A DNA stretch of 21,700 nucleotides from a virus, in IMG/VR virus record IMGVR_UViG_3300027963_000378, positions 1 to 21,700 of that record; one strand, 5' to 3'. The notes under the pieces are model-generated. The model did not search any database. It worked only from the letters and a program-made list of their open reading frames with translations, and had not been told where the DNA came from. A program made the translations under genes and the position numbers. The stretch's first letter is position 1. Every line of letters begins with the position of its first letter. This document shows positions 1,589-18,264 of this stretch, piece by piece.

Positions 1589-1596
1589 TATTTATC
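1589..1596 (-). promoter_or_regulatory. T4-type late promoter box GATAAATA before the cupin gene
   Basis: GATAAATA on the minus strand lies in the 33-nt gap between uvsY and the cupin gene and ends 4 nt before the cupin ATG. It matches the T4 late consensus TATAAATA at 7 of 8 positions. Initiation 5-7 nt downstream would fall on the start codon itself. Confidence 0.6.
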
Positions 1597-1617
1597 TACG
1601 TATATTATTCATAGGTG

Positions 1618-2073
1618 TCATAAAGAAGCATCTTCCATTCCAGCTACTCGTAGCTTAATAACATTGCTAAGTTGCCACTGTTTGATGTCGAGTGCTTTGA
1701 TAATGCCTAACCATTTATTTCTTAGCAGAGCAAACTCGTTAATAATTTTTTCATAATCAACGACATCGCTCTCGCCGTCTACGTATTTTTCCACGTCTCT
1801 GCTACTGAGAGCTCTTTGATAATTCTCAAGATATTTCTTGAAGAACTGGCTACGTAGACGGCGGAGTTCGATGTTCAAGTATTCTAATATCGCTTCAATT
1901 TCTTGAAGTTGGTTGTAACGATGTTCAACGATGCCTGGCATACTTGCCGCAGCTTTCTCGATATTTCCAGTAATCTTTACCTCCTTGCGAGCATCATTTA
2001 GCTCACTTTCAAAGAAAAGAATCGCATCTGGAATATTTGATAGATCTTGGCTTACGGATGTGTACCAGGTCAT
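1618..2073 (-). CDS. uvsY: UvsY recombination mediator
   Basis: A 151-aa protein (T4 UvsY has 137) recognised by its helical core: HRYNQLQEIEAILEYLNIEL followed by RRLRSQFFKKYLE and ALSSRDVEKYVDGESDVVD, the strongly conserved block of marine T4-like UvsY. In T4, UvsY forms a ring that loads UvsX recombinase onto gp32-covered ssDNA in recombination-dependent replication and repair. It follows uvsX and the 78-aa acidic gene in one tight unit: its ATG lies 3 nt past the upstream stop, so it is almost certainly cotranscribed with uvsX. No own promoter is seen. The identification rests on these motifs and on the gp32-uvsX-uvsY context. Confidence 0.93.
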   Translation of the reverse strand: MTWYTSVSQDLSNIPDAILFFESELNDARKEVKITGNIEKAAASMPGIVEHRYNQLQEIEAILEYLNIELRRLRSQFFKKYLENYQRALSSRDVEKYVDGESDVVDYEKIINEFALLRNKWLGIIKALDIKQWQLSNVIKLRVAGMEDASL

Positions 2074-2076
2074 GTT

Positions 2077-2313
2077 TTACTCGTCATCATAATCGTAATC
2101 GTCGTCTTCGTCTTCCCCTTCATCGAGGTCGAGGAAAACACGGATAGCATCATCTAAGTGATCATCATGCCCGAGGGCCTCTGTTAGATTCTGCTCTGTA
2201 GCACCGTGATCGCTGAGAAGATCCACAAATCTTTCAGCTACTACAGTTACTTGTTTCTTATCTGTATATTCTCTGAGAAGGTCCCACATCTCAACAATCA
2301 GTGCTTCATTCAT
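2077..2313 (-). CDS. Small acidic hypothetical protein between uvsX and uvsY
   Basis: A 78-aa protein I do not recognise by name. The first 60 residues look helical (MWDLLREYTDKKQVTVVAER, then LSDHGATEQNLTEAL and HLDDAIRVFLD) and resemble a hypothetical found beside uvsX in marine T4-like phages. The last 17 residues are almost all acidic (GEDEDDDYDYDDE). No membrane segment or Cys cluster is present. Its ATG overlaps the uvsX stop (ATGA, 2310-2313) and its stop is 3 nt from the uvsY start, so it is made in fixed ratio with both recombination proteins. A role tuning UvsX/UvsY/gp32 assembly, for example by contacting basic DNA-binding surfaces, is inference only. Confidence 0.8.
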   Translation of the reverse strand: MNEALIVEMWDLLREYTDKKQVTVVAERFVDLLSDHGATEQNLTEALGHDDHLDDAIRVFLDLDEGEDEDDDYDYDDE

Positions 2314-3374
2314 GCTAAAATTTCTCCAGTTTCTTCATCTATGACATCTACAACCACTTCTGGCTTCTTATATATATGATCTTCCATAACCATATTTAAT
2401 AATTCACCTGACCATTGTTTACGATATTCGATAAATTCTTTTCCTTTAGAATCAATATATTTTAACCGATTACCTTGCTGTGTAATCAAACCTTTCTTTT
2501 CAAAAAGTTCAAGCAAGCCACTATACGGATTCATACCTGTTTCATAAGGAATTTTAATCTGGAGTGTTTCAAATGGTTTAGAATAACGTGTTTTCATGAT
2601 CTTACAAGCAGCACGAATACCGTTAACTTCACTAACCTTATTACCATCTTCATCTTCTTTTAGTTTTAGTTTCTTCATAGCGACTACGATTGAGCTTGCA
2701 TAAACGAAACCTTGCCCGCCACTAATCTTATCATCCGGGTCAAACATGTCTTGACTCGCGTAAGTATGATTTGTACAAACCATGCCAACATTGTAAGATC
2801 CAAACATATTAACACAGTTTCTTACAAGTGCTGTTAGTGCTTTAGGTTTACGACCCATGTCACCTTTTAGATCTCCTGCCTCAAACTGATTAATGTCAGT
2901 TGGAGTGAGCAACATGCCTAAACTATCAATTACAAACAATACTTTCGGACGATCTTCTGCCGCAAGCAGTTTATATTCTTTCATGAATTCATGGATAGTT
3001 CTAGCAACATCGTCAATCATTGCCATGTTTAGTTTTAGTAGTTTGTCTTCGCCTGTATCAACACCAAGAGCATGTAGCCATTTTTCATCAAGTGCGTTCT
3101 CACTGTCAACGAGCACTACGAAAATACCTTGCTCTTGTGCGTTCTTGACAATGTTGCCTGAACAGATATAACTCTTACCTGCACCCGATTCTCCAGCAAA
3201 GACGGTCACTTTACCTAGCGGAATGCCTCTTTGGAAGTCTCCGCTGATGAGATAATTGAGAGCGTAGTTGCCCGTGCCAACCCAATCGGTTGGATCATTG
3301 AAACCGACACCTAGGCCGTCGATACTCTTAGTTAATGTTTTACGAAATTTAGTTATGTCGAATGTCTTAGCCAT
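2310..3374 (-). CDS. uvsX: UvsX RecA-like recombinase
   Basis: A 354-aa protein, a little shorter than T4 UvsX. It has Walker A GESGAGKS (61-68), the DSENALD strand carrying the presumed catalytic Glu (E92), Walker B LFVID (146-150) and the loop region around DPDDKISGGQGF (212-223) that corresponds to DNA-binding loops of RecA proteins. UvsX forms the ATP-dependent presynaptic filament for strand exchange and recombination-dependent replication. A strong Shine-Dalgarno (AAGGGG) stands before the ATG at 3374. It lies downstream of gp32, separated by an 80-nt gap holding a large hairpin, and overlaps the next gene by 4 nt. The C-terminal 30 residues are acidic, as is common in RecA-family proteins. 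Confidence 0.96.
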   Translation of the reverse strand: MAKTFDITKFRKTLTKSIDGLGVGFNDPTDWVGTGNYALNYLISGDFQRGIPLGKVTVFAGESGAGKSYICSGNIVKNAQEQGIFVVLVDSENALDEKWLHALGVDTGEDKLLKLNMAMIDDVARTIHEFMKEYKLLAAEDRPKVLFVIDSLGMLLTPTDINQFEAGDLKGDMGRKPKALTALVRNCVNMFGSYNVGMVCTNHTYASQDMFDPDDKISGGQGFVYASSIVVAMKKLKLKEDEDGNKVSEVNGIRAACKIMKTRYSKPFETLQIKIPYETGMNPYSGLLELFEKKGLITQQGNRLKYIDSKGKEFIEYRKQWSGELLNMVMEDHIYKKPEVVVDVIDEETGEILA

Positions 3375-3396
3375 TTCTGCCCCTTAAAATAATTAT

Positions 3397-3459
3397 GGAA
3401 TATTCGGTGAATTTCGGGGGATTTTCATGGAAAATATCCCCCGAATTATTCGAATTATT
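3397..3459 (-). repeat. Long imperfect hairpin with tandem 9-mer between gp32 and uvsX
   Basis: The core arms TTCGGGGG (3413-3420) and CCCCCGAA (3438-3445) pair perfectly; inside them ATTTTC pairs with GAAAAT around an ATG loop, leaving a 2-nt bulge. Outside, AATAATTCG occurs twice in tandem on the minus strand (3442-3459) and overlaps the gp32 stop codon; a related GAATATTCG lies on the far side (3398-3406). No U-run follows on the minus strand, so it is not a standard intrinsic terminator. It may set the gp32:uvsX ratio by processing or attenuation, or be a protein-binding site. Confidence 0.7.
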
Positions 3460-4432
3460 TAGACTGCCTTGCGCGGATCATGCTAAGGATATCATTAGCA
3501 TTACTCTGACCTGCTGGCTTAGATTCGGCAGTAGCAGCGGGTGCTGCTGTCTTTGTGACTACAGGATCCGGATCAAACGGAATGTTGTCCTCATCTGCTA
3601 CAACAACTTTTGCTGTTGTTCTAGTGTTCGGATCACCAGTTGCAGCACTCATACCGCTCGGGCGGTAATATTGTCCCCAACGCTCTGAGTCAAATGCGTC
3701 ACCGTCAACAGATGCTTCAAACATTTCCTTAATAACTTTAAGCTCAACATCAGTTGGCTTCTTAGGGAGGAAGTCCTTAAGGCTGAACAATCCGTTTTTA
3801 TTGACTGCTTCGACGTCTGAATTGCTTAGAGCACGTTCACGACGTCCCCACTTACTTGTGCTGTAGTCTGCGTATCCGCCTTTGCTAGTCTTAGCGATGC
3901 GGAAATCAAGACCATGTGCATAGTCGGTTGGCAAATCTTCAATCTCAGGATCAAGCAATGCTGCACGAACGATCTGGAAAATCTGTGGACCAATGATAAA
4001 CCTGCGGATCGGATTTTCTGGAGTTGCATCTTCTTTAATAGGATCTTCAACTACAAGTCCTTGGAAAAGATAACTCTTCTTTTTCCAATACTTACGACCC
4101 ATATCTTCGAGGCTTTTGTCCTTAAACCAGCCGCGAACTTCGCTCAACACTGGACAAGTTTCCCCCCACATTTCTACGCAAGGTACTTGTATTTGTACTT
4201 GGCGACTGTCTGTTTCGCCCTTAACGCCATTGAATGGAAGTTTAATCATCGCACGTTCGACCCAGAAGAACGTGTTGTTTGCGTCACCGTCTGGAAGGAA
4301 GCGAACTACTGCTTCTTGGCCTTCTTTGAGATTCCAGAACGGATAAATTCCGTTATCTCCGCCGCCTTGATTTCCAGATGAACGTGTTTCTTGCTCGCGT
4401 AATTTAGCGCGAATTTCTGCTAATGATGCCAT
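3455..4432 (-). CDS. 32: gp32 single-stranded DNA-binding protein
   Basis: A 325-aa protein (T4 gp32 has 301). The N-terminus (MASLAEIRAKLREQE) is the basic LAST-like cooperativity region. The core has YPFWNLKEGQEAVVRFLPDG (30-49), FFWVER, VPCVEMWGETCPVL (83-96) and YWKKKSYLFQGLV, the OB-fold elements of marine T4-like gp32. Only two Cys (C85, C93) are seen in the region where T4 has a His-Cys3 zinc site, so the zinc ligand set differs or is lost. The C-terminal third is low-complexity (Ala, Thr, Asp, Pro) and ends with NDILSMIRARQ, basic rather than acidic at the tip. gp32 coats ssDNA during replication and recombination. A sigma70-like promoter lies 67-96 nt upstream; AGGAG precedes the ATG. 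Confidence 0.95.
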   Translation of the reverse strand: MASLAEIRAKLREQETRSSGNQGGGDNGIYPFWNLKEGQEAVVRFLPDGDANNTFFWVERAMIKLPFNGVKGETDSRQVQIQVPCVEMWGETCPVLSEVRGWFKDKSLEDMGRKYWKKKSYLFQGLVVEDPIKEDATPENPIRRFIIGPQIFQIVRAALLDPEIEDLPTDYAHGLDFRIAKTSKGGYADYSTSKWGRRERALSNSDVEAVNKNGLFSLKDFLPKKPTDVELKVIKEMFEASVDGDAFDSERWGQYYRPSGMSAATGDPNTRTTAKVVVADEDNIPFDPDPVVTKTAAPAATAESKPAGQSNANDILSMIRARQSK

Positions 4433-4455
4433 GTTGCCTATCTCCTATGTTGCCT
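4431..4455 (-). promoter_or_regulatory. gp32 ribosome-binding region with a direct repeat
   Basis: On the minus strand the 9-mer AGGCAACAT occurs twice with a 16-nt period (4447-4455 and 4431-4439), flanking the Shine-Dalgarno AGGAGAT. The second copy supplies AT of the start codon. T4 gp32 represses its own translation by binding its leader; a repeat framing the initiation site fits such an operator, but that is inference. Confidence 0.5.
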
Positions 4456-4478
4456 TGGCTTTTACTTTTTTGTGCCTA

Positions 4479-4514
4479 ATAAAAAACTGCACTATATTAC
4501 TATAGCGCAGTTTT
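4479..4514 (-). terminator. Hairpin terminator after the 942-aa gene, overlapping the gp32 promoter
   Basis: AAAACTGC (4483-4490) pairs with GCAGTTTT (4507-4514); after one A-C mismatch CTATA (4492-4496) pairs with TATAG (4501-4505) around a 4-nt loop. On the minus strand the stem is followed by TTTTTT, giving a typical intrinsic terminator 31 nt past the stop of the upstream gene. RNA started at the embedded promoter would lack the 5' arm and so should not terminate here. Confidence 0.75.
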
Positions 4515-4528
4515 ATTTATCATGTCAA
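4499..4528 (-). promoter_or_regulatory. sigma70-like promoter for gp32
   Basis: TTGACA (minus strand, 4523-4528; 6/6) and TATAGT (4499-4504; 5/6) are separated by 18 nt. This is the best host-type promoter I found and lies upstream of the gp32-uvsX-uvsY set, as expected for early or middle replication genes. A GATAAATA late-type box (4514-4521) lies in the spacer. Confidence 0.7.
4514..4521 (-). promoter_or_regulatory. GATAAATA late-type box inside the gp32 promoter spacer
   Basis: GATAAATA on the minus strand matches the T4 late consensus at 7 of 8 positions and overlaps the spacer of the TTGACA/TATAGT promoter by all 8 nt. It is 81 nt from the gp32 ATG. It could allow late transcription of gp32 or be fortuitous. 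Confidence 0.4.
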
Positions 4529-4544
4529 TCTTTATTTTAGTTTT

Positions 4545-7373
4545 TTATAGGCCTGCTAGCTCTCTAATTCTGCCTAGTTCATAAACTTCTGAATCCTGAT
4601 GAGGAGCAATTTCACGTACTAACTTTTCTGCTAACTGTGCTGCTACTGGGCCATATTTCTTTTCTACTTTAATAACTACGCCTTCTGGACCTGGAGGAAA
4701 TGTTCCCTTTTCTCTATCATAGAATGAGCCTATAAATTCTGCAAGTTCTTTTAGATCAAATGGTTCTTGTCCTGGGCCTGTCATCTGTGGAGGATTTAAT
4801 CTATCTTCATCCTCATCTTCTGCTGCTGCTGGTTCTTCTTCGGGAGGAACCTCGCCTGTTGGTTGTGCTGCTGCGTCTGTTGGTGCTGCTGGATCAACAG
4901 CTGGTTCTTCTTCGGGCTCTGCTGCAGGCTCTGCTGCTGTCTGGTCTTGTTCTAAGTCGCCTACTTCAATTTGATTTTCAATTTCTGGAGCGTTTTCTTT
5001 GATCCATTCCATTACTAACGGCCTTACACAAGCATCAGCACCGTCGCTTGATGATTTAGCCAATTCTTCTATTTGCTTATTGAGCTGAGGGTCATCTATG
5101 ATGCCTTTAAGGCTCTCAATGGCATTTAATCCGTTTGTGCCTGCTGAGAAATGTTCTGGCATTAGCTTGTTCAATTCAGCAACGGCTTGATTTTTTACAT
5201 CTTCGTCTTTGCTTAATACGCCCGACTCTTCATAGATCATGCTGTCGAGTATGTCTTCGAATTCTTTTAGTAAATCAAACTTACTTTCTTGTTTTGTATT
5301 TTGATTTTCTTCATCAACCTGTAATAAATTTTCTAAATCTTCAAATGCGATACCTTCTTTTGAAGCTTCTTTATTTCCATAAAAAATAGGTAGAATTTCG
5401 GCATTTGACATCATCTTTTTAATTAAATTAATTGCTTCTTTTTTCTGTTCCGAATCTATTAACGGTGTTCCTCTAGTTGATCTAGTATCCCAATCGTCTG
5501 CTAGATTCGCCAAAGGACGAGCAACGGGGTTGTCGATTCCGTATAAACTGTTCACAAGATGTTGGATGTAACCCGGCCATGTAGTTGCCTTATTTGCACT
5601 ATCATACCTTACTTTCATCAACTTTAAACGTGCTTCAACTTTTTCTACAGAGTACTTTGCGTTTTTATCTTTAGGATTTTCTTGAGCTGCTTGTATCATA
5701 GTTTTATGCTGTTTCATGGTATGAACTAGCATGTCTCTAATCTTATCCTTATGGAATTCTTCTATCTGTATTTTAGGATGTTGGTCTAGGACCATCTTAA
5801 GTTCATAAGCTGGATCACGTTCTTTGCCTTTATAATCGGACACAGGTTCGTCAGCAGCATCGCTAGCATCATAAGGATCAGCCTTCTTAGGACCTTCCTC
5901 TAACTCGTCGGAATTTGTATGTTCAGACTTAGCATGTTCGATCCACTCGCCTAATTTATTCAATGCTGCTTGTATTGGTCCAGTCAACTTTGCTACTTCT
6001 CTCATATCAGCAAAATCGGTTAAACTCCACTCAACAGTGCGCTCTAGCTCTCTTGAAGTCTGTTCTACCCATTCTTCTACAGCATCTAATGCAGCTTCTG
6101 GTGTTGAGTGCATACTCTGTGCCTCATCAATGCCAGACCCAGATAGTTCTTGTTCAAATCTTTGAGAAACCCAATCCATTGGATCACCTTCTCGGCCTTT
6201 TTGCACACCATATGGCATGTCGCCCGATGCAGCATAGTAGCTGTATAGGGCATCAAAAAGTTCTTCACTCATGTCACCGCCAGCTTTAAAATCTGCAACA
6301 TCTTGTCTAAAGTTATTAATAATACTATCGAGATCGTTCCCGCTTTCGTACATATCGGCCGACATACTGTTCTCCCTAAGATCCCCGTTTAATTCTATTT
6401 CACCACTTTCACCTAAAAGGTCTGTAATATATGGAAATAATTCAGTTAATTCTTCATTAAATTGATGTAGAGTAAATCTATCTTTTAATTGCTCGAGCAT
6501 ATCAGAGTCGATCTCTTTTTTCTGTATCGATTGAAAACTTTCCTTCATCGCTACATAATTCTTTTGTTTCTGTATACTTTCAAGAGTCTTCTTTAGACTT
6601 ACACTTTTATTTTTTGCAGCTCGAGCTATGCCTGATACATCTGTGTTCTCTAAAAATGCTGCACGATTTACGAGATGATTAAATCTACGTAGGCTGTAAA
6701 TGTTTTCACTTAGACTTACTACATATTGACCAAAATCATCGTAAGGGCTACCACCATTTGACACATGACGTTGCATCGCACGAGCACCTGCTAGGTGTAC
6801 GAAAGGATATTTAAAGCGTTCTCCATTTTCACTTTCAATGAAGAGAGCATCTATATTTCTAGTTCTACTGTTTGGACTGTCTTCTTCGATACGCTTCGAA
6901 TGTCTGATGATCAATTTAGTGTTCTCGAGCTTCTGATAGCTTGATCTTGTTGATCCATATAGTGATGATTCGCTCATAGTTAGATCCTTAGTTTTTTCTT
7001 GTGTCTTCGAAAGGAATTCATAATCCCTCTTGTCTAAGTTCTTTTTGATAATATCTTTTGGTTCAAAATTTAAAAGTTTACTTTTAGCAAAGCGTCTCAT
7101 TTCTTTTAAGAAATTAAACCATCTTTTCTTAGACATAGGGTCGTCTGACTCTAAAATGTCAGTGCTGTAAAATATTTTCATCGACTCTTGGTCTGCTATA
7201 CTAATACTAACATTTGCGAGTTTCTCGCCGTTCGGTGCAAAGTCAAAGTCAAAAAATACTGCTTCATTAGGATCTACAGTGCTCATCCCTTGCTCGTTGC
7301 CGAGGCGCACTTGAGGGAAGTGTCCTTTAAGTTTTAGAAACAGGTCGTTGCTGATCGTATTGTTTATTGACAT
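4545..7373 (-). CDS. Large putative virion structural protein (942 aa), function unknown
   Basis: I do not recognise a named family, though the opening (LFLKLKGHFPQVRLGNEQG, then DPNEAVFFDFDF) and the last domain (LAEFIGSFYDREKGTFPPGP, about 880-900) resemble a large hypothetical structural protein of marine T4-like phages. Residues 1-300 look globular; 330-780 are mainly helical and charged. About residues 805-860 form a low-complexity Ala/Pro/Glu linker, and a compact 75-residue C-terminal domain follows. There are no membrane segments or catalytic motifs that I can see. It lies between terminase and gp32, is preceded by GATAAATA ending 7 nt before the ATG and is followed by a terminator, so it forms its own late unit. 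A head, neck or internal virion protein is plausible. Confidence 0.75.
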   Translation of the reverse strand: MSINNTISNDLFLKLKGHFPQVRLGNEQGMSTVDPNEAVFFDFDFAPNGEKLANVSISIADQESMKIFYSTDILESDDPMSKKRWFNFLKEMRRFAKSKLLNFEPKDIIKKNLDKRDYEFLSKTQEKTKDLTMSESSLYGSTRSSYQKLENTKLIIRHSKRIEEDSPNSRTRNIDALFIESENGERFKYPFVHLAGARAMQRHVSNGGSPYDDFGQYVVSLSENIYSLRRFNHLVNRAAFLENTDVSGIARAAKNKSVSLKKTLESIQKQKNYVAMKESFQSIQKKEIDSDMLEQLKDRFTLHQFNEELTELFPYITDLLGESGEIELNGDLRENSMSADMYESGNDLDSIINNFRQDVADFKAGGDMSEELFDALYSYYAASGDMPYGVQKGREGDPMDWVSQRFEQELSGSGIDEAQSMHSTPEAALDAVEEWVEQTSRELERTVEWSLTDFADMREVAKLTGPIQAALNKLGEWIEHAKSEHTNSDELEEGPKKADPYDASDAADEPVSDYKGKERDPAYELKMVLDQHPKIQIEEFHKDKIRDMLVHTMKQHKTMIQAAQENPKDKNAKYSVEKVEARLKLMKVRYDSANKATTWPGYIQHLVNSLYGIDNPVARPLANLADDWDTRSTRGTPLIDSEQKKEAINLIKKMMSNAEILPIFYGNKEASKEGIAFEDLENLLQVDEENQNTKQESKFDLLKEFEDILDSMIYEESGVLSKDEDVKNQAVAELNKLMPEHFSAGTNGLNAIESLKGIIDDPQLNKQIEELAKSSSDGADACVRPLVMEWIKENAPEIENQIEVGDLEQDQTAAEPAAEPEEEPAVDPAAPTDAAAQPTGEVPPEEEPAAAEDEDEDRLNPPQMTGPGQEPFDLKELAEFIGSFYDREKGTFPPGPEGVVIKVEKKYGPVAAQLAEKLVREIAPHQDSEVYELGRIRELAGL

Positions 7374-7380
7374 AGTTGAT

Positions 7381-7388
7381 TATTTATC
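7381..7388 (-). promoter_or_regulatory. Late promoter box GATAAATA before the 942-aa gene
   Basis: GATAAATA in the 32-nt gap after terminase ends 7 nt before the ATG at 7373. An AGGA overlaps the box but is 13 nt from the ATG, far for a Shine-Dalgarno. Transcription would start at or within two bases of the ATG. Confidence 0.6.
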
Positions 7389-7405
7389 CTATATAGATTG
7401 TAATA

Positions 7406-8977
7406 TTATCCAATAAAACTGGAAATAAATATTGGCATTGGTAATTGTTCTTCCTCAGTTCTATCGGAAATAGTGTCGTAAATCTCCGGATCCCAATCAG
7501 CCAATACCTGCGCCATGCGACAGATCAACAAACAGGCCGAGACTAGGTCGTCCGTTTCCCCTGTCTTGGCCTTAAATCCTACTCCGCTAGCTATGTAAGT
7601 TTTCAATTCTGACACTAACGGTTTACTGTTAACTGTCATTCTTTTAGTTTCAATAAGAGATTTTAATTTAACAGCAGCAGTCATTTTTGCTCTATGTGTA
7701 GTATTAAATCCTTTGCGGAATGTTCTAACATGTCCTTTGCGTACAGGCTCACTTAGAAATAGTCCTGGTATATTATCTTCTCCAATGTCTTTGATCACTA
7801 ATAGAGCCGCTTCACCAATGGTGTTATTTTCTATACTCCAATATAACATAGGATCACCTTGTGACTTTATGTAATGTATTATCTCTTTTAGTATTCTAAT
7901 CTGTCCAACCATCGGAGTAGTATTATGATGCCATTCGCCTACTTGTATAAATTTTGGAAGTTCAAATATCTGTATAGCAGCATTATCTCCTCCTGTTCCT
8001 AGGCTAGGATCGAGAGATATCAGATAGGTACAACGATGATCGATCTTCTTATACATCCTAACTTGACCTAATTTTTCCATAGGTTCACGTCCAGACAATT
8101 CTGCTAATGCTAAACTGCTAATCAGTGTTTCGTCAAATACTAAGAACTCGCAACCGTACTCACGACGGAATCGTTCTTCACCGATACGTCCCATTTCCTG
8201 TTGCATCCATTCCTCGTCACGATCGGGGTGTTCCGACCAATGTGCTTTGAAGGGAGCAAACCCATTAACACCAGTTGCTGATTCGTTTCCATACTCGTCA
8301 AATTTTTTATTTGCTTCTGCCCATATGAGAGCAAATGTATCTTCGTCACTGTTTGGTGTACTTGTAATAATAGCTCTACCACCCGTTGCTAGTGTAGGTG
8401 AAATTGAAGTCCAGAATTCAGTAGCAATATTAGGAGCAACGAATGCAAACTCATCACAATATAATAATGAAATACTCATACCACGTCCGGTATTTCCTGT
8501 AGTAGTAGATGAAACTATACGACTACCATTATCGAAATCTATATTTCCTTTATTATAACTAACCACACCACAGCGTATATGATTTGGACATAGTTCATAA
8601 GCATAGCGCACACGCTGCATAATTTCCTGGGCACCGGTGTATTTGTGTGCGGCGATTAGTACAGTGACATCGGGATTAAACATCGCGTACCAAAGTAAGT
8701 AACCAGCAGCACAGGTAGTTTTGCCGCTCTGTCTCGGAAGCATGTTTACATTAAATCGATGATCATGATAACTAGAAACCAATCTAGTTTGATAATCATA
8801 TGGTTCAAATAAAAGCTTACCCTTTACTGGATGTTGTATAAAAAAGAAATTGTTCATGAAAAAATAAGGACCAGTTTCCGGGTCTAAACATGATCTTATT
8901 TCTTCTATTTGTTTCTCGGTAAATCGTTCTTGCTTGTTTGCTTTTTTGACAAGAACGCCTTCTAATGATCTACTCAT
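7406..8977 (-). CDS. 17: Terminase large subunit (gp17)
   Basis: A 523-aa packaging motor protein, shorter than T4 gp17 (610). The ATPase domain has Walker A PRQSGKTT (81-88), Walker B SLLYCDEF (170-177) with catalytic E176, and the coupling motif TST (205-207). The nuclease domain shows the RNase H-like acidic residues: D323 in SLDPSLGTGGD, E383 in YWSIENNT and D477 in TDDLVSA. Together they translocate DNA into the prohead at the portal and cut the concatemer. TATAAATA, an exact T4 late box, ends 5 nt before the ATG and no Shine-Dalgarno is visible. It is separated from its partner gp16 by two hypothetical genes, unlike T4 where 16 and 17 adjoin. Confidence 0.97.
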   Translation of the reverse strand: MSRSLEGVLVKKANKQERFTEKQIEEIRSCLDPETGPYFFMNNFFFIQHPVKGKLLFEPYDYQTRLVSSYHDHRFNVNMLPRQSGKTTCAAGYLLWYAMFNPDVTVLIAAHKYTGAQEIMQRVRYAYELCPNHIRCGVVSYNKGNIDFDNGSRIVSSTTTGNTGRGMSISLLYCDEFAFVAPNIATEFWTSISPTLATGGRAIITSTPNSDEDTFALIWAEANKKFDEYGNESATGVNGFAPFKAHWSEHPDRDEEWMQQEMGRIGEERFRREYGCEFLVFDETLISSLALAELSGREPMEKLGQVRMYKKIDHRCTYLISLDPSLGTGGDNAAIQIFELPKFIQVGEWHHNTTPMVGQIRILKEIIHYIKSQGDPMLYWSIENNTIGEAALLVIKDIGEDNIPGLFLSEPVRKGHVRTFRKGFNTTHRAKMTAAVKLKSLIETKRMTVNSKPLVSELKTYIASGVGFKAKTGETDDLVSACLLICRMAQVLADWDPEIYDTISDRTEEEQLPMPIFISSFIG

Positions 8978-8982
8978 ACGAA

Positions 8983-8990
8983 TATTTATA
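8983..8990 (-). promoter_or_regulatory. Late promoter box TATAAATA before terminase large subunit
   Basis: Exact T4 late consensus on the minus strand, in the 21-nt gap between two genes, ending 5 nt before the gp17 ATG. No purine-rich Shine-Dalgarno lies between the box and the start. Confidence 0.7.
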
Positions 8991-8998
8991 GATAAAAA

Positions 8999-10062: not shown

Positions 10063-10080
10063 TGATATAGGTCCTATGAC

Positions 10081-10578
10081 TTATTTATCTATCTTTTTTA
10101 GTTTTTCTAGCAGACTGTTTCTATCTGTAACAACGTAGTCTGTAACATCAAATGGTTCATCGGAACTTTTCTTTGTTGATTCTTGATCTATCTTTTGTTT
10201 CTTCAGTTGTAGATCTACTATACGTAATTTTTTATCAATCTTAGCGTTCTTTGCATCTATCGCATTTTTAAGCATATTAGCTGCAGTTTCAAATATCTTA
10301 CTGCTATATCGGACTTCTACATTCATACCCAAGTCCATTAAATCTTCATATGCTTTAGTTGCTTTTTCTGCTAGATCATCAAATTCACGATCGCTTGTAG
10401 ATCCCAATCCGTCAACTGCAGGTAACGCAAATGCTATTTTATCAAATTCTTTTAATGTGTATTCAATTTCTTCTTGTTTAGCGATTTCTTTCGCTTGAGA
10501 TTTTATCTCTTTTTCTAAGTCTTTAACTGTTTCCTTGTATTCAGGAAGGTTTAACAATTCTTCTAATTTTTGGGTCAT
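10081..10578 (-). CDS. 16: Terminase small subunit (gp16)
   Basis: A 165-aa all-helical protein, nearly the length of T4 gp16 (164). The central block, DDLAEKATKAYEDLMDLGMN then SKIFETAANMLKNAIDAK and DKKLRIVDLQLKKQK, follows the gp16 pattern of two long antiparallel helices that form the oligomeric ring. gp16 recognises phage DNA and stimulates the gp17 ATPase and nuclease. Residues 14-45 form a further charged helix, and the C-terminus (DVTDYVVTDRNSLLEKLKKI) is a likely contact segment. It starts 10 nt after gp4. A clear Shine-Dalgarno is lacking. Its last codons, GATAGATAAATAA, double as a late promoter box for the next gene. Confidence 0.85.
   Translation of the reverse strand: MTQKLEELLNLPEYKETVKDLEKEIKSQAKEIAKQEEIEYTLKEFDKIAFALPAVDGLGSTSDREFDDLAEKATKAYEDLMDLGMNVEVRYSSKIFETAANMLKNAIDAKNAKIDKKLRIVDLQLKKQKIDQESTKKSSDEPFDVTDYVVTDRNSLLEKLKKIDK
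10082..10089 (-). promoter_or_regulatory. Late promoter box GATAAATA embedded in the gp16 stop codon
   Basis: GATAAATA includes the last codons and most of the TAA stop of gp16. It ends 19 nt before the next ATG, leaving room for the AGGA Shine-Dalgarno at 10072-10075. Confidence 0.55.
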
Positions 10579-10588
10579 ATTTTACTTA

Positions 10589-11397: not shown

Positions 11398-11411
11398 TTT
11401 AATTTCCCTTA

Positions 11412-13958
11412 TTATTCTTCATACGAATAATTGTCTTCATATGCTGAACTAGATGATGAGTCGTCCGATGATGAGCTTTCGTATGGGTAATTAGCTTCAT
11501 AAGATTGATCATCTGATGGATAGTTTGATTCGTATTCTTGATAATCCGGTACATCGCTATTATTATTATCGTATCCAGCTTCATTTCCGCCCCCAACGCT
11601 ACTTTGTGAGTCGTCGATAGTACCAACTGGTGCGTCTGGGTTAGGATCAAATTCGCTTTTTGATAGATTAGCAGTATCTTGTTCTATTTCTTGATTTATG
11701 ATCGTTTCTTTTTGTTGTTCTGCTTGTGCTACTTGGGAATCTATCATATCTTTTTCTTTGGATAATTCTTCATTTTCACTTGCTAAAGAATTAGCTTCAC
11801 GTTCTAACTTAACCGCTTGATTACCCAATGATTGATTTTGGGCATTAAGTGCGCTTGTTTGGCTCTTATATTCAGCAGCACTTATTTGACCATTGTCATA
11901 TTTTTCCTGCACTGTTTGCTGTTGTGCCCGCACATCGGCTTGTTGACTACGTAAATCTTGTGCTTGTGATTTATTATCATCGATTATTTCTTTGTTTTTA
12001 TTAATCAACTGGCCTTGGATTTCGCTGATTTCCTTACCTACTGTGATGCGCTGATCTGCTGCTGCAATTCTGTCAGCTACAGCAGGAGTTCTAGCAGGAT
12101 CAAGTGTAGCACCTTCTCCGGAATTTCTTAAATTTGGTGTTTCAACTCCTGGATGATAATTACCCGAATCGTCTGTAAATCCTTGATTACTTGAAGAGCC
12201 CGATCCTCGAGTATCATCTCCGGCCCTAGATTCCTTGTCTAGATCCCTGTTAAAATTATTATCAACTGCACTTACATTTTCTTGTAGCGTTTTTTCTTGG
12301 GACTGTAATGTGCCTATTCTTTGATCAGATGCTTGTATCTGTTCCTGTGAATCTAGAATTTTAGCTTCTTGCAGGGTTAGATCTGATTGTGCTTGATTTC
12401 TTTCAGTTATCGCTTGTGATTTTTCGAGATTTGCTTTATCTAAACCATCGGCATAATCTTGATCGCTTATTAATCCTAGATCGTGCTTTTCTTTTAGATT
12501 AATCATTTCAGCATCGGCTAGTTTTATATTTTGATCAGCATCTGCTACATTCTTAGCTGCAGCATCTTTATCAGCAGTTGCTTGATCTAAGTTTTTCTGG
12601 GCCGACTGTTTATCTTCTTGTGCTTGTAATTGTTGGTTCTGATTAGCAGCAATCTGTTCTTGGGCTTTTTTTATTGATCCACCTTGCGGATCTTTATTAA
12701 GAAGTTGATCTTGTGCTCTTCGACCTTTTTCAGTCTCTGTAGATTCTGATCTCATACCATTTAATGTTTTTGTTTCGTTGTTATTTTTTGAATCGCCTTT
12801 TTGGTCATAAGCATCTCTTGTATTTCTAGGATTGTCAGTCCCGACAGCATCGCTTCGATTTGCATCGTTCTTTTGATTACTACCGTTCATAAAGTTGTTT
12901 AAAAGGTTACCTGCAAATCTGCCTGCTAATCCTATACCTGCGCCAATCAATGCATTTTTCATCGAATATGGGCTTCCGCCTCCGAAATTATACCCCAGCA
13001 ATCCGCCAGCATTACTGTATGGGTTTCCTCCTATCGGAATACCATAGCCGCCGCTAAGACCGTAATTTCTTCCGTTGCCCCATCCTGTACCTAAGAATCT
13101 ATTGTTTAATAAACTGTTTCCGCTAGCAAATGTGTTGAGTGAGAATGAATCGCCGAATATTCCACCCATTCCGTTTTGCCATAATTCTTCGTTAATTATT
13201 GGGCTCGGTGTAGTATCATAATGCAGTACAGCAAATCCTGTAGGATCATCAACATCGACTGCACCAGAATTATATATCACAGCATCATATGCTATCGTCA
13301 TCGAGTTTTGTACTATACCATTACCTTCAGATTGATCCATAGTATCATGGTCCCATTTAGTAATCTTAGGATTACACAAAAGGTAACTGAAAAATCTCTG
13401 TCTTGAAAGCGTAAAGAGTTGTATACTATCGAAAAACGGCTCATCCGATCCGTTATCTAATCCATAGCGAAATGGCATTCGATTTTTAGATTCGTATGTG
13501 TTACGTGCATATGCTGCCGGAGCGATTCCATCGTCCATCGCGTTCATTCTATCTGCAAAATAATATGAATAATACAATGCCCACATCATGTTAGTAATTC
13601 CATTATTATCATCATGGAATTTCATGTTTATTGGGTCATATATTATGTTAGTATATACATTGGTTTTTCTATTGTATTGATTTAATGTTTCTGTTTTTAT
13701 GGTATATTTAGGTAAATCGGTACTTTTAACTAGATAATTTAATTCTAAATTATGTCTGTCTTCAAAGCTAATATCTTGTGTTGCGTTTGGGTTAATATTG
13801 AACACTACATAATATAAAAATTTAGTTTTGGGTGCGAGTCTAAAGTTGTCCTCGACATACAACCTTGAAGCGTGTTGATAGTCGGCTAGATTACGATCTT
13901 CTCCTCCATAGAGCATCGAACCTATACCTTTTAACCATGCATTGAATTTATTAGCCAT
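11412..13958 (-). CDS. Tail tube/baseplate tube-like protein with long coiled-coil extension (848 aa)
   Basis: Residues 25-250 match a marine T4-like protein of the tail-tube fold (gp19/gp54-like baseplate tube initiator type): DYQHASRLYV, LAPKTKFLYYVVFNIN (41-56), TDLPKYTIKTETLNQYNRKT (80-99), FHDDNN, WDHDTMDQSEGNGI and HYDTTPSPI. A Gly/Asn-rich stretch (260-330) and a hydrophobic Gly-rich helix (332-356) follow. Two long Gln/Ala/Lys coiled-coil regions (about 428-560 and 625-765) are separated by a Gly/Ser linker. The last 60 residues are Ser/Asp/Tyr-rich and very acidic. Each coil carries a similar K-[HY]-D-x-G-x-IS…Y turn. The tube-like part probably lies at the tail-baseplate junction; the extension has no clear counterpart that I know. 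GATAAATA ends 5 nt before the ATG, right after a terminator. Confidence 0.8.
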   Translation of the reverse strand: MANKFNAWLKGIGSMLYGGEDRNLADYQHASRLYVEDNFRLAPKTKFLYYVVFNINPNATQDISFEDRHNLELNYLVKSTDLPKYTIKTETLNQYNRKTNVYTNIIYDPINMKFHDDNNGITNMMWALYYSYYFADRMNAMDDGIAPAAYARNTYESKNRMPFRYGLDNGSDEPFFDSIQLFTLSRQRFFSYLLCNPKITKWDHDTMDQSEGNGIVQNSMTIAYDAVIYNSGAVDVDDPTGFAVLHYDTTPSPIINEELWQNGMGGIFGDSFSLNTFASGNSLLNNRFLGTGWGNGRNYGLSGGYGIPIGGNPYSNAGGLLGYNFGGGSPYSMKNALIGAGIGLAGRFAGNLLNNFMNGSNQKNDANRSDAVGTDNPRNTRDAYDQKGDSKNNNETKTLNGMRSESTETEKGRRAQDQLLNKDPQGGSIKKAQEQIAANQNQQLQAQEDKQSAQKNLDQATADKDAAAKNVADADQNIKLADAEMINLKEKHDLGLISDQDYADGLDKANLEKSQAITERNQAQSDLTLQEAKILDSQEQIQASDQRIGTLQSQEKTLQENVSAVDNNFNRDLDKESRAGDDTRGSGSSSNQGFTDDSGNYHPGVETPNLRNSGEGATLDPARTPAVADRIAAADQRITVGKEISEIQGQLINKNKEIIDDNKSQAQDLRSQQADVRAQQQTVQEKYDNGQISAAEYKSQTSALNAQNQSLGNQAVKLEREANSLASENEELSKEKDMIDSQVAQAEQQKETIINQEIEQDTANLSKSEFDPNPDAPVGTIDDSQSSVGGGNEAGYDNNNSDVPDYQEYESNYPSDDQSYEANYPYESSSSDDSSSSSAYEDNYSYEE

Positions 13959-13963
13959 GTAAT

Positions 13964-13971
13964 TATTTATC
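13964..13971 (-). promoter_or_regulatory. Late promoter box GATAAATA before the 848-aa gene
   Basis: GATAAATA on the minus strand begins four nt after the U-run of the upstream terminator and ends 5 nt before the ATG at 13958. There is no Shine-Dalgarno. Confidence 0.65.
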
Positions 13972-13975
13972 TGAT

Positions 13976-14009
13976 AAAAAAAGACCAGTTTTTAGGCTGG
14001 TCTTTTTTT
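13976..14009 (-). terminator. Intrinsic terminator after tail tube gene
   Basis: GACCAG (13983-13988) pairs with CTGGTC (13997-14002) around an 8-nt loop, extended by A7/T7 flanks, giving a U-run on either strand. It lies 21 nt past the gp19 stop and ends the sheath-tube transcript. Confidence 0.88.
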
Positions 14010-14030
14010 TAATTGTTATGAGGAATAGTC

Positions 14031-14657
14031 TTAGAGACCGCCACCAGTTGCCATTGTTCCTAGTGTGCGTGTTACAGCAGCACCAATACCGTTTCCTTGT
14101 GGAGACTGTATAGCATTGTCATAACGTATGCTTAGTGTTATACTAACAGGTGCGTTTTCCTGATAGTTTAAGCTATTATAATTTGCGCCCTGTACGAAGC
14201 AACCGTATAGTTCAAAAGTTTCTAATACCTGTGGAGTATTTGTTCCATTACCGCCGTCTAGTATTTCGATAACAGTTGTAAACTTATAATCCATACCGCT
14301 AGCTGCTGAACTTTGTTCGTAGAAATCAAACTGTTTCTGCATCTGTTCGCCAACAAGCTTTTGAACATTACCATTAACATCTTCACGCAAGTTGAGAGTA
14401 ATCGCTTCCCAGTTATGCTTGCCTGCTAGATATACTTTACTGTTGTAAACATCTAGAGTAATTTCTTCGAATGTTAAGTTTGGACGGGTAACATCCATAA
14501 CCTGCTTTGTTAGTTCAGTAGTTGGTGTTGATACACCAAAGTTCTGTAACGTAACTCTAAAACGATACTGTAGTTTAGGCATCAGGAGCGATTGAGAACC
14601 GCTGCTTTGATTTGATGCCAACGGCACAGATAACTTTGATAATGTTGAGATTGCCAT
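14031..14657 (-). CDS. 19: gp19 tail tube protein
   Basis: A 208-aa protein (T4 gp19 has 163) that stacks as hexameric rings to form the inner tail tube. Recognised by YRFRVTLQNFG (31-41), LTKQVMDVTRPNLTFEEITL (49-68), the strand SKVYLAGKHNWEAITLNLRED and VLETFELYGCFVQGANYNSL, the standard tube-fold elements of T4-like gp19. The Gly-rich C-terminus (MATGGGL) is short and probably flexible. It lies directly after the sheath gene, in the usual gp18-gp19 order, and is followed by a strong terminator. TATAAATA (exact) and AGGAGT give it its own late promoter and ribosome site, which suits the high copy number of tube subunits. Confidence 0.95.
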   Translation of the reverse strand: MAISTLSKLSVPLASNQSSGSQSLLMPKLQYRFRVTLQNFGVSTPTTELTKQVMDVTRPNLTFEEITLDVYNSKVYLAGKHNWEAITLNLREDVNGNVQKLVGEQMQKQFDFYEQSSAASGMDYKFTTVIEILDGGNGTNTPQVLETFELYGCFVQGANYNSLNYQENAPVSITLSIRYDNAIQSPQGNGIGAAVTRTLGTMATGGGL

Positions 14658-14680
14658 ACTAGACTCCTAATTCCTTCATA

Positions 14681-14688
14681 TATTTATA
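14681..14688 (-). promoter_or_regulatory. Late promoter box TATAAATA before tail tube gene
   Basis: Exact T4 late consensus in the 58-nt gap between gp18 and gp19, ending 23 nt before the gp19 ATG. A good Shine-Dalgarno AGGAGT (14663-14668) lies in between. Confidence 0.75.
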
Positions 14689-14709
14689 TCTATTTAAACC
14701 TGTGTATTA

Positions 14710-14735
14710 CTGGCATCATTTACTACCGATGCCAG
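14710..14735 (-). repeat. Hairpin over the gp18 stop codon
   Basis: CTGGCATC (14710-14717) and GATGCCAG (14728-14735) form a perfect 8-bp stem with a 10-nt loop that contains part of the final gp18 codons; the stop codon (14716-14718) lies at the stem-loop edge. No U-run follows on the minus strand. It may protect or process the 3' end of the sheath mRNA, or be a weak terminator. Confidence 0.55.
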
Positions 14736-17700
14736 CAATTTCTCCTGTATTCTTCAATCTTAGTGGAACGTAGATAAATTCAACTGCCTTGACTGGCTCA
14801 ATAGCAACGTCTAAGTATAGTTCGTTACGGTCGATTCTGCTTGGAGTATTATTCGACTCATCGCAAACTACTAGATAATCATATATCGCACGTTGACCCA
14901 CTAATTCAAGCAATAGACTCTCTGTTGCTGCTTTAATTTCATCACGTGTAATCTTATCATTTGGTTCAAATACATATGGTTTTGCTAGTTTGTCTAGCTG
15001 GCCACGTAAGTAAACAATCAATCTAGCCACGTTAACACGATCAAGCGCACTTGCATTTCGTGCTCTTGTCTTTTGTCCGTATATAACTAAACCCGATCCT
15101 GTTAAGAATGTTAATGGGTTAAGATTTACAGCATATAGTGTATCGCGTTGACCTTCATTAAGTGATATAGACTTCCATTCGCCTTCTACCGAATCAACAT
15201 ATCCGATCGATGTTGCGTTTGTAATACCACCGCGGCGTGTACCAGCTGGTGCAAACCAAGGATAGCTAACTCCGTCACTTAGTGCTATGGTACGTAATAC
15301 CATGTGACTTGCAGGAACTACGATTTCGTTACCATAGTTGTCTGTAGTATAACCACTTGGATAATAAACACCTAAGTATTCGTCGTATGTTACTAAACCA
15401 TCTTCGCCGTTATCTACTGCAAGCATAGCATTTGATCCCCATTCATTGAGGGTTGTTGCATCGCTTGTTAAACGGAATGGTGTATCACCAATAACAAATG
15501 CTGTCTGCTTACGATCAATATTGAGGCCAACCATGTTAGCGATCAATTCAGTATATCCTGGGCAAGCAATGATATTGAATGTACGTATTTCTCTTTCACG
15601 TAGATCTTGATTAGTATCAACTAGTGATTTCATGTGCTTAACAACAACTTTACGCTGTGCTTTGCGTCCAAATAGACCACGTCCGTCAGCAGCATTGCCG
15701 CTTTCGTTAACCCAACGATGTGGATAATAAGTTGTTTGGCGTTCTCCGCTATTAAATCTGATATTGTCTGCTTCGATATCGATGTAATTTTGAACGAATC
15801 TTTTTACAGAGAATCCGCTACGACGTTTGTTGAATAATAACATACCACGTGGATAAAGTGCAGGATCTGGTGCATCAAAATCGATGAAATTGCTGTATAG
15901 TAGATCAGCTATATCACCTGGAGTATTACTATTAGTTCCGTTTGTGTTATAGCGAGCATCAGCAAATACAATACCATCTTCAGTTGATTGATCACTAGTA
16001 TCAACGGATATCCATTTTAGATTATAACCATCCCACTTATAAAGTGCAGGGTAGTTTTCGATATCACCTGAATCAATCCATAGATCACCATTTCTCAATG
16101 TAGTTCCGTCACTCTGTGTTTTTGGCTTAGTCGCACTTACAATCGGACCTGCAGAATCTGTTTGGAAATCTACATTTGAATCATAATATGGACTTGCTAG
16201 CAATGAATTTGGAACACCGTTATATGTACCGTCAAATAAGTATCCAACCCAAGTACGACCATTATGTATCATTATGTCAACACTGTCAATTACTGAGCTA
16301 TACCATAATTTACCGTCATCTGGTATAGTATTTGGTGGACTAAACGCTGCTGTATATTTTAATGGTTTCCAGTTAGTTGCTATATAGTCATGCAATTCGT
16401 CACCAACTGGTGCAGTGTAGAAGTTAGGTGAACCTGAATTAGTTACAACATTAAATGGTGTAAACAGTAATCCCAACGGGCTGAAAGTACCGTCTTTTAG
16501 TCTTATTTCTCCACCCTTTAGGTGTTCGATTATTAGTCTATTACGAGAATCAACACTTGCTTCAACATCTGCTATGCCAGCAGCATTAATTGCAGCAGCC
16601 ATGTCGCTTGCATCACTTACTGCATGATGTGCTTGAAAAGATACCGTAACATCTGTTGATAAACCAGGGTATCCAACGACTGATGCTGCTAGATTAAATG
16701 TGTAAGTTCTTAGATTTACAAATGTGCTAGCTGTAATCGGAACACTAGTAATAGTAGTTGGATCTGGCTGTTCTCTGCGGAAAACTTTAAATGTAGCTGC
16801 TTCCATGAAATACTCAGGTGAAAGACCACTATAGTTGTCGGTTTTCGTTGCTTCAGTTAAATTGAACTGTACGTACAAATTACCTCTTGCTATGTTTTTA
16901 CCACCACCGGTTCTATCTAAGTAATATGTAGCATCATGGTTGTTAGAATAAACCGGAGCTTCAACTAGATCCCATGTTAGTGTTTGTGCGTTCCAAATCT
17001 TAATTCTCCAACGAGCACCAAGATTAACGTCTGTTGTTTTAATCCATACAGACCCACTCGGACGAGGAGCAGGATCTCTTGTCTTAAAGCGAGGAACTGA
17101 AGTGTGTGGACCAATCTGTAGAGCAGGACCGTAATATGTTCCAGTAGCAATACCAGTTGAACTAGTTGCCGTGCTAGACGCTACAAGTGTACCTGTACCG
17201 GCTTCAATAACGATAGCGTTTGATAGTGAGCTGTCAAGTTGTGGACTATCAGCTGCACCGTTGCAGTATAGTTCTAAACGTGAATTAACCACGGCTGCAC
17301 TTACTCCGCGCAATGTATCGTTATTAAATAGAACGTTAATGTCACTTGCAAGTGCATTTACAGTAGTTCCCGATGTAAGTGTTACTTCGACACCGTTGAT
17401 GATTATGCTGTGTCCTGCAGTTAATGTAGGATTACTTTTGTTACCTGCAACAAGCGGCCAGCTGTTATTCCAATCATCTGAACCTACTAGAACCCAATCA
17501 CCCATTCTATTTTTGAAGTAAATCTTGTTAAGTGTAGTGATAGCTACTACTGCGTAATCACCTACTTTACCTACTGAGCCTAAAGGAGCACCAGTTAATT
17601 GATCTATCTTAGTGCTGTCTACGATTACAGTAGGAACTCTATTTGTGAACTGCTGTCCACCTCTTACTGTGGCTGCAGCGCCATTCCATTCAAATATACC

Positions 17701-18132
17701 AAATCTCGAATCTTTAACATCAAACCAATATGTTCCATCTTCTGGATTTGCACTTGGTCCAACTGCAAGAGGTGCTAGTTGTGCTACATCAAGATTTGAT
17801 CTAACAACATAAGCACTGTTGCTTACTGCTAGATAGCTGTATGCTGCTTGTAATCCGTATTCGTTAAGTTCACCACCATGAACTGGGTTCTGGCTAGCAT
17901 CCTTATAAAACAATGGCGTACCAAATGTTTCGGTCAAATCTCTCTGGCTAGTAATCAAATATGGCTTACCAGCGTTTGCTTTTAATGTACCAACTGCGAT
18001 ACCAGTGCCGGAACCGTTGGTTTTATTTTCTTGTGATGACACTATTATAAGTGGGCGTGTTCCTGGTGCGGCTGTGACATAAAAGCTTTCATCAATTACT
18101 TGTACTTCTACGCCGGGTGAATTTAACGTCAT
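14716..18132 (-). CDS. 18: gp18 tail sheath protein, with about 600-aa insertion
   Basis: A 1138-aa contractile sheath subunit, far longer than T4 gp18 (659). The N-terminus (SPGVEVQVIDESFYV, GTRPLIIVSSQ, LTETFGTPLFY, YSYLAVSNSAYVVRSN to about 113) and C-terminal part (from about 750: RGMLLFNKRRSGFSVKRFV, FNIIACPGYTELIANMVGLN, RDTLYAVNLNPLTFLTGSG, IYGQKTRARNASALDRVNVA, LYLDVAIEPVKAVEFIYVPL) are typical sheath core blocks. Residues about 125-715 are an insertion with five short GxLW…WNGxxW-like units and two Flagellin-IN-like beta modules (about 236-315 and 478-558). Sheath insertions point outward, so these probably decorate the tail surface. ACTAAATA and AGGAG stand upstream. The high Ala/Val/Thr content fits a beta-rich exterior. 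Confidence 0.96.
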   Translation of the reverse strand: MTLNSPGVEVQVIDESFYVTAAPGTRPLIIVSSQENKTNGSGTGIAVGTLKANAGKPYLITSQRDLTETFGTPLFYKDASQNPVHGGELNEYGLQAAYSYLAVSNSAYVVRSNLDVAQLAPLAVGPSANPEDGTYWFDVKDSRFGIFEWNGAAATVRGGQQFTNRVPTVIVDSTKIDQLTGAPLGSVGKVGDYAVVAITTLNKIYFKNRMGDWVLVGSDDWNNSWPLVAGNKSNPTLTAGHSIIINGVEVTLTSGTTVNALASDINVLFNNDTLRGVSAAVVNSRLELYCNGAADSPQLDSSLSNAIVIEAGTGTLVASSTATSSTGIATGTYYGPALQIGPHTSVPRFKTRDPAPRPSGSVWIKTTDVNLGARWRIKIWNAQTLTWDLVEAPVYSNNHDATYYLDRTGGGKNIARGNLYVQFNLTEATKTDNYSGLSPEYFMEAATFKVFRREQPDPTTITSVPITASTFVNLRTYTFNLAASVVGYPGLSTDVTVSFQAHHAVSDASDMAAAINAAGIADVEASVDSRNRLIIEHLKGGEIRLKDGTFSPLGLLFTPFNVVTNSGSPNFYTAPVGDELHDYIATNWKPLKYTAAFSPPNTIPDDGKLWYSSVIDSVDIMIHNGRTWVGYLFDGTYNGVPNSLLASPYYDSNVDFQTDSAGPIVSATKPKTQSDGTTLRNGDLWIDSGDIENYPALYKWDGYNLKWISVDTSDQSTEDGIVFADARYNTNGTNSNTPGDIADLLYSNFIDFDAPDPALYPRGMLLFNKRRSGFSVKRFVQNYIDIEADNIRFNSGERQTTYYPHRWVNESGNAADGRGLFGRKAQRKVVVKHMKSLVDTNQDLREREIRTFNIIACPGYTELIANMVGLNIDRKQTAFVIGDTPFRLTSDATTLNEWGSNAMLAVDNGEDGLVTYDEYLGVYYPSGYTTDNYGNEIVVPASHMVLRTIALSDGVSYPWFAPAGTRRGGITNATSIGYVDSVEGEWKSISLNEGQRDTLYAVNLNPLTFLTGSGLVIYGQKTRARNASALDRVNVARLIVYLRGQLDKLAKPYVFEPNDKITRDEIKAATESLLLELVGQRAIYDYLVVCDESNNTPSRIDRNELYLDVAIEPVKAVEFIYVPLRLKNTGEIAGIGSK

Positions 18133-18139
18133 ATCCGAT

Positions 18140-18144
18140 CTCCT
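18140..18144 (-). promoter_or_regulatory. Shine-Dalgarno of tail sheath gene
   Basis: AGGAG on the minus strand, 7 nt before the ATG at 18132, fixes the sheath start. Confidence 0.75.
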
Positions 18145-18164
18145 GTTATTGCAGACTTCAGTAA

Positions 18165-18172
18165 TATTTAGT
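18165..18172 (-). promoter_or_regulatory. Late promoter-like box ACTAAATA before tail sheath gene
   Basis: ACTAAATA on the minus strand, 32 nt before the gp18 ATG, is a variant of the T4 late box; CTAAATA-type forms are reported for marine T4-like phages. It is the only candidate in the divergent gap. Confidence 0.5.
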
Positions 18173-18216
18173 ATTATATCTAGAAAATCATGTCTATATA
18201 ACCGTGAAAAGGTGGA

Positions 18217-18258
18217 ATAAAGGTAATATATAATTTAGATAAAGGTAAATAAAGGTAA
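18217..18258 (+). repeat. Three direct copies of ATAAAGGTAA
   Basis: ATAAAGGTAA occurs at 18217-18226, 18239-18248 and 18249-18258, the last two exactly adjacent, all within the 137-nt divergent gap. It could be an operator or a repeated ribosome-binding motif: the last copy gives AAAGG about 14 nt before the plus-strand ATG. Confidence 0.7.
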
Positions 18259-18264
18259 TAAATA
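18229..18264 (+). promoter_or_regulatory. Promoter elements for the plus-strand zinc protein
   Basis: A perfect TATAAT (18229-18234) lies 36 nt before the ATG with only a weak -35 (GTGAAA, 18204-18209, 19-nt spacer). Separately, AATAAATA (18257-18264) ends 5 nt before the ATG and matches the late box at 7 of 8 positions. Either or both may be used. Confidence 0.45.

Follow-up and report, generated by a model that had tools for sequence, protein, structure and literature searches.

Start-codon-abutting late promoter boxes and probable leaderless late mRNAs in T4-like phages

Results

Boxes of the T4 late-promoter type abut the start codons of a set of genes in a clade of uncultured T4-like jumbo phages, and very probably these are gp55-type late promoters that give leaderless or near-leaderless late mRNAs. 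The initial annotation had read five genes in this way, and its reading is supported by the pyrimidine preceding the start codon, the exclusive use of ATG, the conservation of the class among relatives, the terminators upstream of the boxes, and the geometry of T4 late promoters. The evidence is that of sequence alone, and no data on transcript ends, ribosome occupancy, or the N-termini of the proteins stand behind it.

The window and its relatives

The DNA analyzed here (the window) is a 21.7-kb virus fragment, IMG/VR record IMGVR_UViG_3300027963_000378. It encodes UvsY, UvsX, a gp32-type SSB, a virion protein, the gp17 terminase, a head closure protein, two tail-tube-like proteins, a tail sheath, a dNMP kinase, and glycosyltransferases. 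Judged by gp17, its closest named relative is the Pseudomonas jumbo phage PA5oct (Arenbergviridae; 54% identity), whose gene order around the terminase, tail tube, and sheath matches that of the window. Closer gp17 proteins (66–80% identity to that of the window) are carried by 80 IMG/VR contigs, which are likewise fragments. Genes were called with a simple longest-ORF caller in the window, the 80 contigs, and seven long contigs at full length; spacer statistics were taken from 1,071 distinct ATG genes in the window and the 80 related contigs.

The tail sheath (14716–18132) is 1,138 amino acids in length and exceeds the 915-position PHROG profile that it matches end to end. Two adjacent glycosyltransferase genes (19155–21331) both match PHROG 13126, and one of them has a GTG start after a strong AAGGAGG. 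Jumbo T4-like gp17 genes also occur in GTDB MAG contigs from Euryarchaeota (L199), Pelagibacter (L200), and Methylophilaceae (L201) bins. These three are probably stray phage contigs; the host hints are weak, and no firm host is indicated. The abutting-box class is absent from the Methylophilaceae contig.

Five abutting boxes in the window

The initial annotation placed ATAAATA 4, 7, 5, 5, and 5 nt before the ATG of the cupin, 942-aa, gp17, 848-aa, and zinc genes, respectively, and all five distances were confirmed (Table 1; the ATAAATA core of the gp17 box is at 8983–8989(-)). ATAAATA is no more frequent in the window than chance predicts (9 found versus 10.4 expected), but its placement does exceed chance: a box lies 4–7 nt upstream of 5 of the 19 gene starts, and none of 20,000 simulations based on upstream base composition yielded more than 3.

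Table 1. Predicted promoter boxes, genes, and associated elements, in window coordinates
Feature	Position	Strand	Profile match	Remarks
Late box ATAAATA	1589..1595	-		4 nt before cupin ATG
Cupin, mannose-6-phosphate isomerase C-terminal type	1252..1584	-	PF01050, E 1.5e-23	No SD
Late box ATAAATA	7381..7387	-		7 nt before 942-aa ATG; predicted 2-nt leader
942-aa virion structural protein	4545..7373	-	PHROG 13484, E 5e-20	
Late box TATAAATA	8983..8990	-		5 nt before gp17 ATG; predicted +1 is A of ATG (8977)
gp17 terminase large subunit	7406..8977	-	PHROG 36964, E 2e-123	Predicted leaderless
191-aa gene box	10082..10088	-		19 nt before ATG, with AGGA
Late box ATAAATA	13964..13970	-		5 nt before 848-aa ATG; predicted +1 is 13958
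848-aa second tail-tube-like protein	11412..13958	-	PHROG 4542 (tail tube), E 1.4e-9	Predicted leaderless
Putative intrinsic terminator, AAGACCAG-loop-CTGGTCTT and T run	13976..14004	-		Just upstream of 848-aa gene box
gp19 late box TATAAATA	14681..14688	-		23 nt before ATG, with SD
Tandem AAAGG repeats, 10 nt apart	18241..18255	+		Precede zinc-gene box
Late-type box ATAAATA	18258..18264	+		5 nt before zinc/HNH-like gene ATG
Small HNH-endonuclease-like (zinc) protein	18270..18590	+	PHROG 2255, E 1.1e-4 (weak)	

The accompanying claim that none of the five genes has a well-placed Shine-Dalgarno (SD) site holds for the cupin, gp17, and 848-aa genes, which lack one entirely, but not fully for the other two, which have marginal SD-like words: an AGGA that overlaps the box of the 942-aa gene and an AAGG just before the box of the zinc gene, both at marginal spacing. 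The leaderless reading is weakest for the 942-aa gene, with its 2-nt predicted leader, and for the zinc gene. No orthologue of the cupin was found among the relatives, and its case rests on the window only.

Tandem AAAAGG(G) repeats, ~10–12 nt apart, are kept in the zinc-gene family (L012, L015, L044, L054, L115, and others). Such repeats before a box were seen at the HNH-like gene only, and they are perhaps a regulator site or an SD-like element. Many zinc-gene orthologues also carry GAGG ~10 nt before the ATG, which could act as an SD. Because of the conserved repeats and this possible SD, the zinc gene may be controlled differently.

Other genes have distant boxes and, as the initial annotation had noted, SD sites: the box lies 19 nt before the 191-aa gene and 32 nt before gp18, where it is CTAAATA, and AGGA, AAGGA, or AGGAG is found at each of these genes and at gp19. 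The gp19 gene (14031–14698) has TAAATA twice upstream of its ATG, at distances of 23 and 33 nt.

Predicted position of transcription start

The first base of the 8-bp T4 late box is at -13, and the box spans -13 to -6 (PMC2988020). Position +1 is then the sixth base downstream of the box, and with a 5-nt spacer this base is the A of the ATG. The proposal that T4 geometry would put +1 on or next to the ATG thus fits the published numbering. It also fits a pyrimidine-purine step that peaks at box+6 in SD-led genes with distant boxes, as observed in the relatives, PA5oct, T4, and cyanophages. Pyrimidine-purine is the usual dinucleotide at start sites, and 153 of 154 genes with a 5-nt spacer have C or T just before the ATG, as compared with 119 of 272 SD starts (p 2e-38). 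Geometry and the -1 pyrimidine support a transcription start at or near the AUG, but the real 5' end is inferred, as no 5' ends have been mapped.

In the proposed mechanism, a gp55-type promoter with a 5-nt spacer would start transcription on the A of the ATG, and one with a 4- or 7-nt spacer within ~2 nt of it. Ribosomes would start on these leaderless late mRNAs without an SD, by recognizing the 5'-terminal AUG. A second late class in the same phages, with the box 15–35 nt upstream, would produce a leader of ~10–30 nt with an SD, and each late gene retains its class in relatives. Leaderless translation is itself an inference, and neither the host of the jumbo clade nor that host's capacity for leaderless initiation is known.

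Box spacing, start codons, and SD sites among relatives

The distance from TAAATA to ATG is sharply bimodal in the 1,071 genes. The spacer is 4 nt in 35 genes, 5 nt in 142, 6 nt in 2, and 7 nt in 9; spacers of 9–14 nt are nearly empty, and a broad hump of 161 genes with SD sites follows at 15–35 nt. TAAATA occurs at a spacer of 4–5 nt 177 times in the relatives, whereas permuted hexamers do so a median of 3 times, and the two permutations that score high are one-base shifts of the same box. With relatedness removed by counting protein families, TAAATA is found at 4–5 nt in 39 of 425 families, versus 0–6 for unrelated permutations. The gp17 ATG of the 80 contigs is most often preceded, in order, by a hairpin, a T run, TAAATA, and a 4–6-nt spacer, with no SD.

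All 189 starts at spacers of 4–5 nt are ATG, while the 331 starts with an SD of at least 5 nt comprise 272 ATG and 59 GTG or TTG (Fisher p 4e-13). AUG is thus strictly preferred over GUG and UUG in the abutting class. The restriction to ATG is as expected if, as in leaderless translation, a 5'-terminal AUG is required. The -1 pyrimidine, the ATG-only starts, and the step at box+6 are three independent signs that agree with the predicted start position.

An SD (a match of at least 4 nt) was detected at 78% of genes with a distant box and 56% of those with no box, but at 13% of those with an abutting box. This comparison of box distance with SD strength over the relatives favors the leaderless reading. 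The initial annotation saw design in the inverse link between the two; the link is real in the relatives but partly geometric, because a box that ends 5 nt before the ATG fills the position of the SD and so forces part of the SD absence. For the putative promoters, what carries information is the exact placement at 5 nt, which geometry does not force, together with the nearly empty interval at 9–14 nt.

Conservation of the promoter class and upstream terminators

The putative promoter class follows the gene across orthologues. An abutting box is present in 43 of 44 orthologues of the 942-aa protein (family 2, whose representative also matches PHROG 13484; mostly with a 5-nt spacer), 36 of 38 orthologues of the 848-aa protein (family 7), all 16 zinc/HNH-like orthologues, and 37 of 56 gp17 family members. 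The gp19 orthologues have a distant box and an SD in 34 of 34 cases and an abutting box in none, and a distant box is found for 19 of 23 sheath orthologues and 42 of 45 orthologues of the 191-aa protein.

In the 100 nt that precede the gene, 39% of abutting genes have a terminator-like hairpin, versus 6–7% of others. With terminators before the abutting boxes, much upstream mRNA would be expected to stop short of these genes. An upstream terminator was not detected for the remaining 61% of abutting boxes, and read-through from upstream promoters could also yield leadered mRNA, for example at the 942-aa gene, which lies 32 nt after gp17.

Alternative explanations

AT-rich start regions can substitute for an SD in general, and an abutting box might accordingly be a translation element (A/U-rich, S1-type, non-SD) on leadered mRNAs instead of a promoter. 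The lack of SD sites at abutting genes would suit such a role, as would the location of some of them close behind another gene, such as the 942-aa gene after gp17. We consider this quite improbable, because the exact hexamer matters, with same-letter permutations rare at that spacing, and the spacing is fixed to 1 nt. TAAATA also occurs 15–35 nt upstream of SD genes, too far away to assist initiation; abutting boxes often have an intrinsic terminator shortly before them, which would cut off read-through mRNA; and the -1 pyrimidine fits a transcription start. Alternatively, the boxes could be true start sites whose leaderless transcript is minor or regulatory, most of the protein being made from longer, leadered mRNAs. 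The tight packing of late operons and the many abutting boxes without a detected upstream terminator leave room for this, but at these genes the longer mRNAs would have no SD either, and a terminator often stands between an abutting gene and what lies upstream. It remains an unlikely account.

Miscalled starts would place the boxes at an ordinary late-promoter distance from true downstream starts with SD sites. Candidates for such starts exist in the 942-aa gene (GTG at codon 22, with AAGGA) and the 848-aa gene (ATG at codon 15, with AAGG). The start of gp17, however, is evidently called correctly, since its N-termini are conserved across relatives from codons 1–5 of the ATG, and the next in-frame start in the window is only at codon 41. 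The proteins of families 2 and 7, too, are conserved close to their N-termini, and the abutting starts of Pelagibacter phage HTVC008M coincide with those in GenBank. Miscalling was rejected on the gp17 start codons and the conserved N-termini, and we give it very little weight. Least credible of all is chance placement of TAAATA near ATG by AT-rich upstream sequence. The phage does have a GC content of ~38%, and the window has no more boxes than chance predicts, but the position of the boxes, their conservation over 80 contigs, and the absence of the class from AT-rich T4 speak against it, and the spacer histogram already refutes it. Leaderless or near-leaderless late transcription thus remains the preferred reading.

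Comparison with other T4-like phages

T4 late transcription is a textbook system in which boxes lie well upstream, with room for a leader and an SD. The clade shares with T4 (gp55/gp33/gp45, TATAAATA promoters) the same box and, as far as the pyrimidine-purine step at box+6 indicates, the same box-to-start geometry. Homologues of gp55, the phage late sigma, are found in PA5oct and in three long relatives (G001, G002, and G008); the gene is absent from the window's own 21.7 kb, and use of the boxes by gp55 is inferred. The putative promoters of the clade take the form [GA]ATAAATA or TTAAATA, and the sequence upstream is only T-rich, with no -35-like motif. The kind of promoter is not new, and the novelty is a variation on T4 late transcription: a large class in the clade is predicted to be leaderless by placement, whereas none of 191 T4 genes has a box 4–5 nt before the ATG, and T4 boxes lie ~12–35 nt upstream.

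In the gp17 tree, the abutting class is present in every IMG/VR contig of the clade. T4, Syn9, S-PM2, and 121Q are without it, and PA5oct has one gene. The late promoters of the cyanophages S-PM2 and Syn9 are NATAAATA (PMC2984593), the same motif as in the clade, and these phages have a g55 homologue. Nonetheless, no gene of S-PM2 or Syn9 has a spacer of 4–5 nt, and their boxes are mostly 20–38 nt upstream. The same spacer occurs at no gene of 121Q and at 1 of 298 genes of PA5oct, which has distant boxes instead.

A second lineage with the class is that of the pelagimyophages. In the SAR11 phage HTVC008M, 11 of 154 genes have a spacer of 4–5 nt, at starts that GenBank annotates independently for gp2, gp4, a baseplate wedge protein, the tape measure, and CsgF, among others. 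The gp2 and gp4 genes are divergent, and the 26 bp between them (L210, 18917–18942) hold two late boxes that overlap, each set against the ATG of one of the two genes, so that there is no room for leaders. Among the IMG/VR relatives of HTVC008M, 29 of 166 genes have a 5-nt spacer and 7 a 6-nt spacer, and only 2 have a distant box. Like the jumbo clade, the HTVC008M group has the 5-nt class on structural genes and has gp55; gp33 and gp45 are annotated in HTVC008M as well. Unlike the jumbo clade, HTVC008M falls on the Kyanoviridae (cyanophage) side of the gp17 tree, its box is TATAAATAGTARY, and distant boxes are almost lacking. A metagenomic study did not find late promoters in pelagimyophages (PMC7029224), which may be because the boxes sit against the ORF.

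Phage-encoded bS21 or IF3 was considered as a cause of the leaderless preference and ruled out, as their presence does not track the class: bS21 is present in HTVC008M, PA5oct, and Phosso, and IF3 in Phosso, CBB, and 121Q, while neither was found in the longest (partial) contigs of the clade.

Discussion

Searches of the literature, confined to open-licence papers, turned up no description of leaderless late mRNAs in T4-like phages. The classical leaderless phage mRNAs include those of lambda cI from PRM and of P2 gene V, which begin at the AUG and are translated without an SD. These are isolated genes with host-sigma or activator promoters and not a large gp55-type late class. Jumbo phage AR9 was ruled out as a precedent, as its leaders are 26–491 nt.

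It is possible, though we advance it only tentatively and hold it to be doubtful, that two T4-like lineages separately moved much of the late program to leaderless mRNAs, and that translation is thereby switched throughout the phage in step with the gp55 late sigma. If this were true, late infection would depend on a mode of ribosome initiation other than that of early infection. The leaderless question is testable in a cultured pair, HTVC008M on Pelagibacter, and TAAATA-N5-ATG provides a concrete start signal for gene finders. If a conserved class of late promoters does abut the ATG, leaderless translation would be one of the main ways in which aquatic phages make their virion proteins.
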